Assembly (NCBI GenBank): GCA_905234695.1
Contig: CAJOHZ010000021.1
Span: 1 to 64,000 of the forward strand
Direction of reading: 5' to 3'
Origin: an uncultured Bacteroidales bacterium
GTDB lineage: Bacteria; Bacteroidota; Bacteroidia; Bacteroidales; P3
DNA length: 64,000 bases
The notes under the pieces were generated by a model. That model was not told where the DNA came from and did not search any database. It worked only from the letters and a program-made list of their open reading frames with translations. The number at the start of each line of letters is the position of its first letter. Within the stretch, counting starts at the first letter, position 1. Shown here one piece after another: positions 20,977 through 56,590 of this stretch. The translations under genes were made by a program, and so were the position numbers.

Positions 20977-21444
20977 TTATGGTTTTACGGTCATGTCTTT
21001 CTGTATGGTGTCGAGCATCCAAATGGGCGATTGGTTGCCGCATAGACGCTCGTAATCCTTGCTATTTGATGTGCTCCAGTCTGTAACCTTCACATCGGTG
21101 TAGTAAGCAGTACCGTTCGTGTGATCTACATTCACCCTGTACTGCACTGAGAAGTTCATCGTGTTGCCGTTGTCATCGACGAAACTGTAGGTGTCGTAGT
21201 TGAGCTGTTCGTTTGGAATCCAGTCGGACGAGTGGACGTCACCCTCGAAAGAAGGTGTAGAATGGCGCAGTTCGTTCCGACTGTCGTGTTTTTTACCGGT
21301 GAAGGTATATCCCTGCGCTTCGATGGCTGACACCACATCATCGACTGTCTTATTGAATGTCGGCATGGAGGTCACATATATGGGACCCGTGCAAGCTATG
21401 AAGACAAAAGCTGCCACGACTGTTATCAGTATCTTACGCATCAT
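20977..21444 (-). CDS. Lipoprotein of unknown function
   Basis: Lipobox 'AAFVFIACTG'; 4-nt overlap with mpl. Confidence 0.6.
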   Translation of the reverse strand: MMRKILITVVAAFVFIACTGPIYVTSMPTFNKTVDDVVSAIEAQGYTFTGKKHDSRNELRHSTPSFEGDVHSSDWIPNEQLNYDTYSFVDDNGNTMNFSVQYRVNVDHTNGTAYYTDVKVTDWSTSNSKDYERLCGNQSPIWMLDTIQKDMTVKP

Positions 21445-22895
21445 ATAATCTCGTCTGCCAATTGTTTGAAATCGATGCCGTCGAAGTTGCCGCTGCTCAT
21501 CATCAGCAGATTTGCGTTATTCCAATTCATGGCCTTCACCTTCTCTACCATCGCCGTGCTGTCGGTGAAGACCTCCACGTTCCTCACTGCATTGTTTTTG
21601 TTTTCATCGGTGTTCGGTTCCCCTTCGGGGTTGCCGCCGAATGCCGCTTTCACCTCCTCGGGGTCGAGGTCGGGCAGCTTCTTGAGCTGCAGGGCATGCT
21701 TGCTGTAGTAGACATAGCGCACGTCGGCCTCATCCATGGCACCTTTGTACTGCTGCAGGAACTCCTGCGTCAGCGAGCTGAAGGTGTGCAGTTCCATACA
21801 GGCCACCAGCCGACGGCTCGGGTACTGCTCGCGCATGGCGTGGATGGTGGCGCGAAGTTTCGACGGCGCATGGGCGAAGTCTTTGTAGACGGCACAACTA
21901 TCGTTCTTCTTGACGAGCTCAAGACGCTTCGAGGCGCCCTCGAATGTACTTATGGCCTCGTCAAATTGAGTATCAGTCACCCCCACCATCCCCTTGGGGA
22001 GAAAGTTGGCATCGCGCAAGGCGATGCCGACCTGCCGGCAAGCCAAGCGTGCTGCGGTGAGGTTAAGCAGATTGTGGTGCCCGAATACCTGTAGGGGTGT
22101 ACCCCCGTGTACGCCCTTGCATAGATAAGTGACACCGTTTTCCACCCTATGCTCAGGACACACATACGGCAGCTTCTGGATGTCCGTGCGTCGATTCTCC
22201 ACCGCCACACGATGCACCTCAGCATCCTCGTCGCAGTATATCAGTGTCCCCTTGGGCTCGATAAGGTCTATGAACTTCGCAAACTGCTCACGATAGATAT
22301 CAAAGGTCGGGAAAACATTGATATGATCCCACTCAATACCAGTGATGATGGCCACATTGGGCTTGTAAAGGTGGAACTTCGGCCTGCGGTCGATGGGCGA
22401 GGTCAGGTATTCGTCGCCCTCGATGACCATCACCTTGGCGGTATGGCTTAGGCGTACCATCACCTCGAAACCTTTGAGCTGTGCCCCCACCATATAGTCA
22501 GCCTCGATGCCGCAATGCGCCAGCACATGCAGTATCATCGCTGTGGTGGTTGTCTTGCCATGCGAGCCGCCCACCACGATGCGCAGTTTGTCCTTCGACT
22601 GCTCGTAGAGGTATTCGGGGTAGGAATAAATCTTGAGTCCCAACTCCTGCGCCTTTAGCAACTCGGGGTTGTCGATGCGGGCATGCATACCCAGCACTAC
22701 GGCATCCAAATCCGGGGTGATGCGCTCGGGATGCCAGCCCTCCTCCTTCGGCAACAGGCCATATTTCTCCAGCCGGCTTTTGGCGGGGTCGAATATCTCA
22801 TCGTCACTGCCGGTGACGTTAATTCCTTTTTGGCACAGGGCGATAGCGAGGTTGTGCATCGCCGAGCCACCGATGGCTATAAAGTGTACTCTCAT
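21441..22895 (-). CDS. mpl: Mur ligase family, UDP-N-acetylmuramate--peptide ligase (Mpl-like)
   Basis: 'HFIAIGGSAMHNLAIAL', 'VVGGSHGKTTTTAMI', 'VIEGDEYLTSPIDRRPKFHLYKPNVAIITGIEWDHINVF', 'YKDFAHAPSKLRATI'. Confidence 0.85.
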   Translation of the reverse strand: MRVHFIAIGGSAMHNLAIALCQKGINVTGSDDEIFDPAKSRLEKYGLLPKEEGWHPERITPDLDAVVLGMHARIDNPELLKAQELGLKIYSYPEYLYEQSKDKLRIVVGGSHGKTTTTAMILHVLAHCGIEADYMVGAQLKGFEVMVRLSHTAKVMVIEGDEYLTSPIDRRPKFHLYKPNVAIITGIEWDHINVFPTFDIYREQFAKFIDLIEPKGTLIYCDEDAEVHRVAVENRRTDIQKLPYVCPEHRVENGVTYLCKGVHGGTPLQVFGHHNLLNLTAARLACRQVGIALRDANFLPKGMVGVTDTQFDEAISTFEGASKRLELVKKNDSCAVYKDFAHAPSKLRATIHAMREQYPSRRLVACMELHTFSSLTQEFLQQYKGAMDEADVRYVYYSKHALQLKKLPDLDPEEVKAAFGGNPEGEPNTDENKNNAVRNVEVFTDSTAMVEKVKAMNWNNANLLMMSSGNFDGIDFKQLADEII

Positions 22896-24094
22896 TTATT
22901 GGGGTCTTTAGGGTAATACTTGAAATACTTGGTCACCTGCTTCTCCAGGAAGTGGCGGTCGAGTTGGTCGCTGGCTTCGCTAATGGGCAGGCAGCGACCA
23001 TCTTTATAAAGCACCTTGATTTCCTGGTCGGCAAAATCGTAACTGCGGTTATGGAGGCGACCTGTCCCTTCGAAGTAATTAGTGACACCTTTCACCTCTT
23101 CAAACGGTTCATTGCTGAAACGAATGGCAGGCAGACGTCGGTTGACCATATTACAGCACAACGTGCTCAGAATCTCGTCGTCGCAATGCTGCCAGTGTTT
23201 CATGGCCACCATGATGTCGTCGTCGTCCACCTCGGCAAAGGCGTCAAGCAAATCGGGATTGCAGCGGAAGTCTGTCTCGGTGAAAGACCTTTCCAGAAAC
23301 ATCTGTAGAGGCGCACCCCTGTGTACGCCCGTTTGTTCATTTCCTGACGCATCCCAGGAGTTGCCCACATCTCTACGGCGGCGCAATATATTCAGCAGCA
23401 GCTGGTCGGCGGCAATGACGGTTTTGTGCATATACACTTGCCAGTACATCAGCCGGCGGCTGATGATGAACTTCTCCACACTGTAGATGCCTTTCTCGTC
23501 CACCACCAATTCATCGTCATGGACGTTTAACATACTGATGATACGGTCGGTACCCACAATTCCTTCGCTCACTCCTGTAAAGAAACTGTCACGTCCGAGG
23601 TAATCCAGTCGGTCCATATCCAGCTGGCTACTCACTAGCTGATGCAGGAAATGTTTGTGGTAACGGTTGGCGAAAATCTCAATGGCAACATCCAAAGCGC
23701 CTTTCATTTCCACATTGATACGCTGCATCATCAGCAACGTAATCTCCTCATGTGGCACATCCACCAGCACACGCTCACTGGTGTGCGAGAAGGGGCCATG
23801 TCCGATGTCGTGAAGCAGAATGGCCAGCTTGGCCCCGCGACATTCCTCGTCGGTGATTTCCACCCCCTTCTGCTTCAGCACCTCCAGCGCACGCCCCATG
23901 AGGTTCAGCGCGCCGAGCATGTGGCTGAAGCGCGTATGCATCGCCCCGGGGTAGACCAGGTACGTCAGACCCAGTTGCTTGATGCGCCGCTGCCGCTGAA
24001 AGTAGGGATGGTCGATGACCTGCAGAATCACTGGGTCGTCGACCGAGAGGAACCCGTCATACACCGGATCGTTGATTATTTTGCGTTTCGTCAT
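22892..24094 (-). CDS. HD-domain phosphohydrolase
   Basis: 'RIKQLGLTYLVYPGAMHTRFSHMLGAL', 'AILLHDIGHGPFSHTSE', 'SSQLDMDRLDYLGRDSFFTGV'. Confidence 0.9.
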   Translation of the reverse strand: MTKRKIINDPVYDGFLSVDDPVILQVIDHPYFQRQRRIKQLGLTYLVYPGAMHTRFSHMLGALNLMGRALEVLKQKGVEITDEECRGAKLAILLHDIGHGPFSHTSERVLVDVPHEEITLLMMQRINVEMKGALDVAIEIFANRYHKHFLHQLVSSQLDMDRLDYLGRDSFFTGVSEGIVGTDRIISMLNVHDDELVVDEKGIYSVEKFIISRRLMYWQVYMHKTVIAADQLLLNILRRRRDVGNSWDASGNEQTGVHRGAPLQMFLERSFTETDFRCNPDLLDAFAEVDDDDIMVAMKHWQHCDDEILSTLCCNMVNRRLPAIRFSNEPFEEVKGVTNYFEGTGRLHNRSYDFADQEIKVLYKDGRCLPISEASDQLDRHFLEKQVTKYFKYYPKDPNK

Positions 24095-29415: not shown

Positions 29416-29580
29416 AGAAACTGTTTAAGATTAATCCAATGTTTTTCTTAACACATCAAAACGGCATCTTTCCCTCCTTTTCTCGGTCACAATGGACCCC
29501 CATTGCTCCCTCAAAAAAGAAGAAAAATCTGCTCGCCTTGCTGCATAACAAAATCCATCAATTAAATTTAAACAGTTTCT
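29416..29580 (-). repeat. MITE-like repeat, copy 1 (inverted relative to copies 2 and 3)
   Basis: Ends AGAAACTGTTTAA...TTTAAACAGTTTCT; interior matches copies at 49650 and 51280. Confidence 0.85.
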
Positions 29581-40337: not shown

Positions 40338-42087
40338 TTACCTTATCACCACCACCTTGCAGGCGGGGTAGTTCCCGACCTTGATGAGGTAAGTGCCCGA
40401 TGCTGGCACATTGAATTGTACGGGCGTACCCCCGTGCATCTCTTCACTCTTCCGTGTGGCCAGCAGGCGGCCTGTGGCATCATACAGCATCACTGGCATA
40501 CCATCGGCCCCCTCGACGACTATCTGCCCGTCATGGACGTAAATCTTGGCATCGATTGTCATCACATCGTCGATGGCATTGCCACCGACATAAATAGTGT
40601 CGTGGATATAGATGGTATCGAAGATGTATCGATTAAGGTAGATCGTGTCGTATATGTAGTTGTTAACAGTATCGTGGAAGTAATTATTGATAGTATCATG
40701 AATATAGACAGTATCGTGAATAAAGACCGTATCAAGGATAGCTTGTGCATAGTAAGCCGTAATCAACGTATCTTGTGTCACCACAAGGGAACGAAGATTG
40801 TCGGTAATGCCGTCGCTCCAATTCGTAAAACGATACCCTGTGTTTGATACCGCATTGACAACGGCCGTCGGAGTCTGACATGTGGGGTGGATAAGAATGA
40901 CTACACCTCCCATAGTAGAGTCAGAAGAGATTGCATTGAATGAAGGCCCTGCTGCTTCTACGAAATTTGAAAAGTAATTCCACCGCGAGTAATAAGACAT
41001 CGCACTACCACAGGGAATGTTTACGGGAATTGTTGATTGAACTCCATTGAATGAAGTTGTTTCCAATGTTGGTGCTACCGATCCCAAACATGTTATTGAT
41101 GTCAAGCCGCTACAATTTCTAAAAGCATAACTTCCAATATTAGTGACAGAACTGCCAATAGTTACGGAGGTCAACCCAATGCAATTTCTAAAGGCATAAT
41201 TTCCAATGCTGATGACGGAATCACCAATAGTGACGGATGTAAGTCCGATGCACCCAGAGAAGGCGTAATTTCCAAGACTGGTGACAGCTCTAGGAATGAA
41301 TGTTGAGCCTCCTAATCCAATATATGATATTAATTGTGTTTTAGTTGAATCCGTGTAAATGAAATCGCCATCAGTGATTCCATTCATATTTGTTGCTCCC
41401 CATGGACTTCCTGAAGCAATGCCATGATATTCAATATGACGTACACCGTGAAATGCATTACTGCCAATATTGGTAACAGAATTGGGGATAGAAATAGAGG
41501 CCAGTCCTGCACAACTATAAAAAGCATTGCTTCCTATATTGGTAACAGTATTTGGAATGATGAGAACTCCGGACAACTGGCTACATCCATAGAAAGCGTA
41601 TTGGCCAATGCTAGTAATCATATTAGGAAGGGAGAGAATCCCCGTAAGTCCACTACAGTTATAGAAAGCGTAATCTCCAATGCTGGTAACCGAGTTGGGA
41701 ATTGTGACGGAAGTCAATCCGCTACACCCCGAGAAAACGCGATTCCTAATACTTGTGACAGTGCTAGGAATAGTAATTGAGGTAAGTCCACTACAATCCC
41801 GAAAAGCACCTTCACAGATGTAGGAAACAGAATAGGTACGTCCCATATATGAAACACTATCGGGAAGGATAAGATTCCCTGTAGGCATTGTATATCCAGA
41901 CCATCCCGGATTAGTACCGTCAGCTGGATATGTCAACACTACACTATTACCAAGGCTTCCATTATTATAGTTATAGTACAACCTCTGCCCACTTGGTGCG
42001 ACGTCATAAAAGTCGTAGGCTTTTACACTTTGCGGAATCGCCATTTGCCATCAACAGGATGGAGAGAAGGGATAATTTCTGTTTCAT
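40338..42087 (-). pseudogene. BspA-type leucine-rich-repeat T9SS surface protein; one-base frameshift within the signal peptide (ORF track start 42044)
   Basis: 'CSGLTSVTIPNSVTSIGDYAFYNCSGL' repeats; HDTVYIHDT linker; C-term 'MPVMLYDATGRLLATRK...GTYLIKVGNYPACKVVVIR'; signal peptide MKQKLSLLSILLMA lies in another frame at 42087. Confidence 0.8.
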
Positions 42088-49649: not shown

Positions 49650-49802
49650 AGAAACTGTTTAAATTTAATTGATGGAATTTGTTATACAGCAAAGCGAGCA
49701 GATTTTTCTTCTTTTTGAGGGAGCAATGGGGGTCCATTGTAACCGAAAAGATGCCGTTTTGATGCTTTAAGAAAAACATTGGATTAATTTTAAACAGTTT
49801 CT
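49650..49802 (+). repeat. MITE-like repeat, copy 2
   Basis: AGAAACTGTTTAAATTTAAT ... ATTAATTTTAAACAGTTTCT; about 20-bp imperfect TIRs. Confidence 0.88.
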
Positions 49803-51279: not shown

Positions 51280-51435
51280 AGAAACTGTTTTAATTTAATT
51301 GATGGAATTTGTTATACAGCAAAGCGAGCAGATTTTTCTTCTTTTTGAGGGAGCAATGGGGGTCCATTGTAACCGAAAAAAGGAGGGAAATTTGACGCTT
51401 TAAGAAAAACATTGGATTAATTTTAAACAGTTTCT
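51280..51435 (+). repeat. MITE-like repeat, copy 3
   Basis: Same TIRs and interior as copy 2, same orientation. Confidence 0.88.
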
Positions 51436-54860: not shown

Positions 54861-55437
54861 GAGACTACTGCTGCGCCCGTGGCGCGAAGACGATGCCGAG
54901 GCACTATACAAATATGCCAGTGACCCCGAAGTGGGACCCCGCGCAGGCTGGCCGCCACACAAGAACGTGGAGGAAAGCCGCGAGATTATCCGCACCCTCT
55001 TCAACAGCGACCACATGTGGGCCATCGAACTCAAAGAGACAGGCGAGCCCATCGGCTGCATAGGCTATTTCGTCTATGGCGAAAGCAATATACACATCGG
55101 CGAGAACGATGCCGAGGCAGGTTACTGGGTCGCCCGCCCCTACTGGAACCGCGGCATCTGCTCCGAAGCCCTGCGGCTGCTGATAGACTACTGCTTCAAC
55201 GAGAAGCATTTCCAAACCCTCTGGAGCGACTACTTCCCCGACAATCCCGCGTCGGGTCGCGTGATTGAGAAGTGCGGCTTCCGCGACACCGGCGAGATAA
55301 ACTATTGCAGCCAACTCCAACTCGGGAGCGACAAACCCGTACGCATCATGCGATTAGACAACCCATCCACGAGCACCACTAATTCCATCAACTCCATAAA
55401 TTCCACCAACTCCCATGACAAGAAAACATTGGATTGA
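54850..55437 (+). CDS. GNAT-family (RimJ-like) N-acetyltransferase
   Basis: 'TERLLLRPWREDDAEALYKYASDPEVG', 'AEAGYWVARPYWNRGICSEALRLLI', 'NPASGRVIEKCGF'. Confidence 0.92.
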   Translation: MKTERLLLRPWREDDAEALYKYASDPEVGPRAGWPPHKNVEESREIIRTLFNSDHMWAIELKETGEPIGCIGYFVYGESNIHIGENDAEAGYWVARPYWNRGICSEALRLLIDYCFNEKHFQTLWSDYFPDNPASGRVIEKCGFRDTGEINYCSQLQLGSDKPVRIMRLDNPSTSTTNSINSINSTNSHDKKTLD

Positions 55438-56590
55438 CAACCTCCGTTGGGCGACAGTGCTGCTGGTGCTGCTCTACCACGTCATCTATTTCTACAACAA
55501 CAAAGGCGTTTTCGGCGGCGTAGGCGGCTTCGGCGACGGCCCACAATACCAAGACACACTGATGTACCTCCTCTACCCTTGGTTCATGCCGCTGCTCTTC
55601 CTGCTGGCAGGCGTAAGCGCACGGTACTCCCTACAGAGCCACAGCGGCGGGGAATGGTTCCGTTCCCGCACCCGCAAACTCCTAGTGCCCGCCACCATCG
55701 GCCTTTTCGTCTTTCAATGGATGACCGGCTACTTCAACACACAAGTGGCGGCCTACAGCCAAGGTACCAGCCCTTTCGGCGACCTCCCCACGACACTGCC
55801 CGATGGCGTTCGGGCCACCATCAAATACATAGCCTACAGTGTCTCCGGCATCGGCCCGCTGTGGTTCATCCAAGACCTGTGGCTCTTCTCGCTCATCCTG
55901 CTATTAGTCCGTAGCGTCATACGTCTGTGCACGCCCAAACGCCACAGCGTAGAGAAGGGCACGCACAAGTGTGCATTCCTTCAACCGAAATGGCCACTCG
56001 CCATTGCGTTGCTTCTCCTTGGCGTGCTTTTCTGGCTCGGCGAGCAGACCCTCGTCTTCAACCCTCGTCCGGAAAGCCTCGACGGCCTCTACAACCTCTA
56101 CAAACCCGTCTTCTACCTCATCCCCTTCCTATTGGGATACTTCGTCTTCTCGCACGACCCGGTGCAGGAAACCCTCTCCAAATACTGGATACCGCTGATG
56201 GTCTGCGCCGTCGCCTCCTGTGCGGCACTCACCATCACCACCTTCGGCCAAGACAACACCTCGCCACAATATCTTGCCAGCCCGCTCAACTGTCTTTACG
56301 GGTGGTTGATGTGCCTGGCCATGATGGGCTGGTTCAAAGCCTGCTTCGACCGCACGGGCCGCTTCGCCGCCTACATGACGCGTAGCAGCTTCGGGCTCTA
56401 TATTGTCCACTATCTCGTCATCGCCAGCATCGGCTACACAATGAAAGTCTACACCACGCTCCCACCCGTGGCCATGTACCTCATCCTCACCGTCGCCGTC
56501 CTGGTCCTCTCTCCCCTACTCTACGAAGGGCTCCGTCGAATCCCTGTCATTCGCTGGTGCGTGCTGGGCGAAACCTTTAGGAACAAGTGA
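55415..56590 (+). CDS. Acyltransferase-3-like integral membrane protein
   Basis: 'RKHWIDNLRWATVLLVLLYHVIYFYN'; about ten hydrophobic helices. Confidence 0.85.
   Translation: MTRKHWIDNLRWATVLLVLLYHVIYFYNNKGVFGGVGGFGDGPQYQDTLMYLLYPWFMPLLFLLAGVSARYSLQSHSGGEWFRSRTRKLLVPATIGLFVFQWMTGYFNTQVAAYSQGTSPFGDLPTTLPDGVRATIKYIAYSVSGIGPLWFIQDLWLFSLILLLVRSVIRLCTPKRHSVEKGTHKCAFLQPKWPLAIALLLLGVLFWLGEQTLVFNPRPESLDGLYNLYKPVFYLIPFLLGYFVFSHDPVQETLSKYWIPLMVCAVASCAALTITTFGQDNTSPQYLASPLNCLYGWLMCLAMMGWFKACFDRTGRFAAYMTRSSFGLYIVHYLVIASIGYTMKVYTTLPPVAMYLILTVAVLVLSPLLYEGLRRIPVIRWCVLGETFRNK

Follow-up and report, generated by a model that had tools for sequence, protein, structure and literature searches.

The window, the whole 64-kb stretch of DNA that was analysed, contains four copies of a short palindromic unit, each inside a gene. 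The units and their host genes are listed below; the label REP follows the interpretation developed further on.

22091 to 22116, plus strand: probable REP unit, copy A; GTAG and an 8-bp stem with a 6-nt loop, 2 mismatches to the consensus
21441 to 22895, minus strand: mpl, a Mur-ligase-family gene; copy A is in frame and read as KGVHGGTPLQ, in the turn preceding VFGHHNLLN
23305 to 23330, plus strand: probable REP unit, copy B; 2 mismatches to the consensus, encodes TGVHRGAPLQ
22892 to 24094, minus strand: HD-superfamily phosphohydrolase-like gene; copy B lies in a loop that is absent or otherwise filled in relatives
40418 to 40443, plus strand: probable REP, degenerate; 7 mismatches, GTAC end retained, other stem arm decayed, encodes EMHGGTPVQ
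40338 to 42044, minus strand: gene for a leucine-rich-repeat-like protein with a T9SS-type tail (PASGTYLIKVG); the degenerate unit lies immediately ahead of the tail motif
55911 to 55936, plus strand: probable REP, degenerate; 6 mismatches, read in the frame RRGVPPCTP
55957 to 55982, minus strand: candidate inverted partner, in decayed form, of the 55911 unit; about 10 mismatches, the two forming a putative relic REP pair 20 nt apart
55415 to 56590, plus strand: membrane acyltransferase-like gene; the loop bearing the 55911 unit exceeds that of the closest relatives by about 8 residues, and the whole match is 87 nt longer

Scanning the window with the genus consensus at up to 7 mismatches in 26 yielded four independent sites, against 0.017 expected from 60 dinucleotide shuffles. 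An additional match on the opposite strand (22095-22120, 7 mismatches) corresponds to copy A read as a palindrome and is not an independent site. For the 40418 copy we relied on this shuffle test, because its E-value is circular, the model (R1) having been trained on that very copy. Relative to the gene, the same frame is used by the copies at 22.1, 23.3 and 40.4 kb (xGVHGGTPLQ, TGVHRGAPLQ and EMHGGTPVQ, respectively). The original prediction had described copy A as a 28-nt palindrome at 22089-22116, which corresponds to CT plus the unit; its sequence and coordinates are exact, and it encodes CKGVHGGTPLQVFGHH on the gene strand in the mpl frame. Among the neighbouring copies that it proposed, those at 23303 and 40417 indeed have the same frame as copy A, whereas the one at 55958 is weak when taken alone (about 10 mismatches); there is a clearer unit immediately upstream, at 55911, and the sequence at 55957-55982 is best read as its decayed inverted partner. 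An exact search of the window for the two proposed arms, GGGCGTAC and GTACGCCC, at a spacing of 3-10 nt found nothing because each copy in the window has at least one stem mismatch; the genus consensus does fit the pattern. Two other 100-nt repeats of the window, 99% identical (49650-49749 and 51280-51379), belong to a larger dispersed repeat, a third copy of which, near 29416, has diverged further.

The unit GTAGGGGCGTACYCCYGTGTACGCCC (A2 consensus) is 26 nt long, with an unpaired GTAG followed by an 8-bp stem, GGGCGTAC/GTACGCCC, and a 6-nt loop. It shares with GTAG REPs their unpaired 5' GTAG beside a stem-loop, which in such elements is 20-40 nt long, and their dispersal in multiple copies. 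The genome from which the window comes (2.47 Mb, 70 contigs) contains 10 copies at up to 3 mismatches, with none for a reversed-pattern control, and 17 covariance-model matches at E-values up to 10. With up to 3 mismatches allowed, eight of 61 genomes, all of one genus, contain the unit, and the covariance model finds 10-37 copies in several species. Inverted pairs (REPINs, or dimers) occur in G002, G022, G070, G077 and G080; the 55911/55957 pair is the only, decayed, candidate in the window's genome. Exact 26-mer copies in GTDB r220 come almost entirely from metagenome-assembled genomes (MAGs) of ruminant Bacteroidales. The exact 26-mer was also seen in single contigs (L272, L277 and L274) of Caldilineaceae, Nitrospirae and a Prevotella-labelled MAG, which may reflect horizontal spread, common REP ancestry or contamination.

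The stem is paired in 93.6% of the cells (47 distinct sequences), and 22 cells show double changes, compared with 4.1 in shuffles (0/500). The commonest alternative stems are GGGCTTAC/GTAAGCCC and GGGCAGAC/GTCTGCCC.

We then determined which genes carry the unit and how they read it. In the window's genome it is in frame in mpl, the HD-phosphohydrolase gene, uvrA, mnmE, prmA and an rlmI-like methyltransferase gene. In-frame hosts in relatives are pheT, alaS (coding for AlaRS), dxs, rarA and the genes of a UvrD-like helicase, a beta-galactosidase, a GT2 glycosyltransferase, an acetyltransferase and a GH97 protein, among others. Pfam or NCBIfam matches confirmed the identity of Mpl, UvrA, MnmE, PrmA, RlmI-like, PheT, UvrD-like, AlaRS, DXS, RarA, GT2 and beta-galactosidase. 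Longest-ORF calls alone were discarded as proof of coding for several ORFs devoid of Pfam support (e.g. L192, L147 and L006), and the copy of L008, located in a short T9SS-tail fragment after a stop, was not counted as a gene insertion. In the 17 ORFs whose family match covers the unit or lies on both sides of it, a tally by hand of 20 copies gave 12 in the frame xGVHGxTPLQ, five in RRGVPPCTP, two in GRTRGYAPT and one in RAYTGVRPY; a fifth frame, VGAYPRVRP, has hosts supported on one side only. The excess of the first two frames, both Gly/Pro-rich, is real in these counts, and we tentatively attribute it to compatibility with loops. Six of the 10 copies in the window's genome are within genes, against about 65% of surviving copies in a rough neutral estimate that assumes about 87% coding sequence, 5/18 coding insertions open and in frame, and survival of all intergenic insertions, and that is an indication only.

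The original prediction had singled out the shared peptide. Were (K/T)GVHGGTPLQ a functional tag, i.e. an interaction or processing signal, the element could have spread for its useful protein sequence, and the xGVHGxTPLQ frame is indeed found in five of the six clear gene insertions of the window and its genome, besides being the commonest frame in the tally. However, other genes of the genus read the same DNA in four other frames or orientations, and the covarying stem alters the peptide, as with GGGCAGAC/GTCTGCCC in AlaRS. In addition, the hosts have no functional kinship, and there are intergenic copies as well as REPINs around a transposase gene, so that a selected tag appears highly improbable. 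The covariation of the stem and the use of five reading frames in host genes argue instead that the DNA hairpin, rather than the peptide, is the conserved object.

The original prediction that the palindrome is a dispersed insertion, in frame in coding sequence, was borne out. The closest homologues of mpl, 90-91% identical, do not share its residues; they lack the unit and read ENGITYIGNTALQVFGHHN. More generally, the host sites are loops that vary in length, and in relatives they lack the unit and have shorter or unrelated sequence. According to an alignment with Escherichia coli MurC (2f00), the insertion site in Mpl is the turn ahead of the GRHN motif; modelling Mpl with AlphaFold from its sequence alone was of no use (pLDDT 36). 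This turn is occupied by a diverged copy in G069, a full inverted pair in G077, a palindrome-like insert of another kind in G015 and a CTTAAAG-type repeat in G002. One stretch of pheT is 396 bp long in G022 vs 372 in G015, G009 and G070, rlmI has 33 additional nt relative to all four aligned relatives, and one insertion in the AlaRS gene is common, at the same site, to the sister species G061 and G006. In most empty-site alignments the insert is accompanied by loop replacement or drift, and in several a variable loop has been replaced instead of a clean gain.

The differing lengths of the host loops, and the other short repeats that relatives carry there, could suggest convergent variation, with palindromes arising locally in hypervariable loops or through assembly errors. 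This explanation is scarcely credible, given that many unrelated genes, and MAGs assembled independently in several studies, contain near-identical 26-mers, and that sister species have same-site insertions in common, as in AlaRS.

A second palindromic insert of mpl (21987-22028, minus strand; GGCATCGCCTTGCGCGATGCC..., GIALRDANFLPKGM) is in frame and shared with the mpl gene of G001, and it is absent from other relatives. We rejected it as a member of the family, as it is non-repeated and found only in those two mpl genes. A AATTGAGAATTGA-type repeat (peptide NSQFSILNSQF) is in frame in similar kinds of genes (L001, L053, L041 and other loci of the genus), including the RlmI-like gene of the window's genome and mpl of G019. 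Present in 12 of 66 sister contigs, it was the sole clearly recurrent one in a pattern hunt for other loop-filling repeats.

A putative transposase for the unit was found in relatives. Y1_Tnp (PF01797) matches above the cut-off occur at G002:C3 and G022:C32, and each of them has an inverted REP pair on either side. Read by eye from the translation, the protein has the HUH motif (NHVH) and the catalytic Tyr (in YIRDNP). Its best family match is NCBIfam REP_Tyr_transpos (NF047646; E 7.9e-18), at 64.7 bits under a cut-off of 80, which is an annotation threshold and not a biological feature; it also has weak matches to solved IS200-type transposases. The name RAYT is used here in the sense of RAYT-type by domain and REP flanks. 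RAYT genes were detected in seven of 59 genomes, and all seven are among the 10 REP-rich genomes (hypergeometric 3.5e-7, uncorrected for relatedness). Flanking REPs, usually as inverted pairs, were seen around the RAYT genes of G002, G022, G025, G069, G070 and G077. The diverged RAYT of G025 (44% identical) has inverted pairs of its own variant, GTAGGGGCATACCTYGTGTATGCCC, on both sides. In G069 and G077 (L186 and L180), the RAYT frame continues without a stop through REP sequence into the NamZ (exo-beta-N-acetylmuramidase) gene.

At one of these loci the RAYT gene has the following position.

1501 to 2034 of each of L336, L335, L337 and L338: RAYT gene

Its DNA is 100% identical (534/534) among G002, G022 and G070 and 99.4% in G080, whereas the flanking genes are 79-92% identical. 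Judging from these identities, the gene may have been exchanged or converted recently at a single locus, or be under extreme constraint.

The window's own genome, which is 97% complete, has no PF01797 or RAYT match, and no RAYT was found in the REP-rich G006 and G061, both of which are incomplete genomes. The copies of the window's genome, mostly single, are probably relics of past activity, unless the RAYT lies in an assembly gap; loss and gap are not distinguishable because some copies are close to contig ends.

The hairpin unit, its dispersal, the REPINs and REP-flanked Y1/HUH transposase genes of relatives and the in-frame presence of the unit in loops are observed. The palindrome is thus very probably a GTAG-type REP element, mobilized by a REP-associated tyrosine transposase (RAYT/TnpA-REP). 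A palindromic element of the Rickettsia type (RPE) or another MITE, with an unknown mechanism independent of RAYT, would also account for in-frame coding insertion, the hallmark of RPEs, and the text of PMC3733652 places RPE-4 and RPE-6 among REP-like elements, of CGTC type. The GTAG end, the REP-flanked RAYT genes, the co-occurrence of RAYT and REPs and the cognate REP at a diverged RAYT make this very improbable. The resemblance to Rickettsia in the original prediction thus holds for the insertion behaviour and not for the family.

A mechanism can be proposed for the REP element and its RAYT. The transposase would cut and paste single-stranded REP or REPIN DNA at many sites, and insertions that break the frame or the protein core would be lost. 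The survivors would be those that keep the frame, avoid the one frame with a stop (the TAG of GTAG) and lie in a surface turn; thus, the 9-10 extra residues would be tolerated passengers and no selected peptide. TnpA-REP enzymes recognize single-stranded REPs via GTAG and cleave at CT-type dinucleotides (PMC8266576), and REPINs have been proposed as the moving unit (PMC3116915). By analogy, such recognition, cleavage and mobility would apply to the rumen Bacteroidales system. A broader scenario, which we regard as rather doubtful, is that RAYT and REPINs insert into genes with about the same ease as into intergenic DNA, that in-frame hairpins, together with other short repeats, alter the same tolerant loops of core proteins again and again (one Mpl turn has at least five different inserts), and that species exchange or homogenize the transposase cassette at one locus.

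The usual description of REPs is as extragenic elements, and the way in which palindromes get into coding sequence, for example in Rickettsia, is an unsettled question. A single genus of rumen Bacteroidales offers the element, its probable transposase, element-free sites in sister species and insertions in core genes, so that the origin of coding palindromes, their choice of targets and their cost to proteins become testable. UvrA, PheT, MnmE, PrmA and Mpl are available as natural peptide-insertion mutants.

The system resembles the REPtrons of E. coli, Pseudomonas and Stenotrophomonas, as these are described in the texts of PMC3733652, PMC8266576 and PMC3116915, in its 5' GTAG, short stem-loop and inverted pairs, and in a Y1/HUH transposase gene that lies between REPs of its own type. 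In contrast with REPtrons, the Bacteroidales genus has few copies (10-40 per genome), which are very often intragenic rather than extragenic. The NHVH, WQ and YI.xNP motifs are those of TnpA-REP subclasses 2.4 and 2.7 (PMC6006769), the former being abundant in Bacteroidetes, with REPs often inside the transposase gene (PMC6006769); by comparison, the RAYT frame of G069 and G077 extends into the NamZ gene. Like RPEs, the unit forms palindromes in frame within working genes. RPE-4 and RPE-6 differ in sequence class, being of the CGTC type, and have no known dedicated transposase according to the text of PMC3733652, whereas the Bacteroidales unit is of the GTAG type and has a RAYT. Bacteroidetes is not among the phyla named for GTAG REPs in the text of PMC3733652, where Di Nocera and colleagues (2013) described intragenic GTAG REPs, including in-frame REPs and dimers in coding genes such as uvrA, in Opitutus terrae, Thioalkalivibrio and others. 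Unlike in those bacteria, as that text presents them, insertion in the Bacteroidales is seen against many orthologues of the same genus and with a cognate RAYT. Thus, intragenic GTAG REPs are already known from that text, uvrA included, and the Bacteroidales case is unusually rich in coding insertions.
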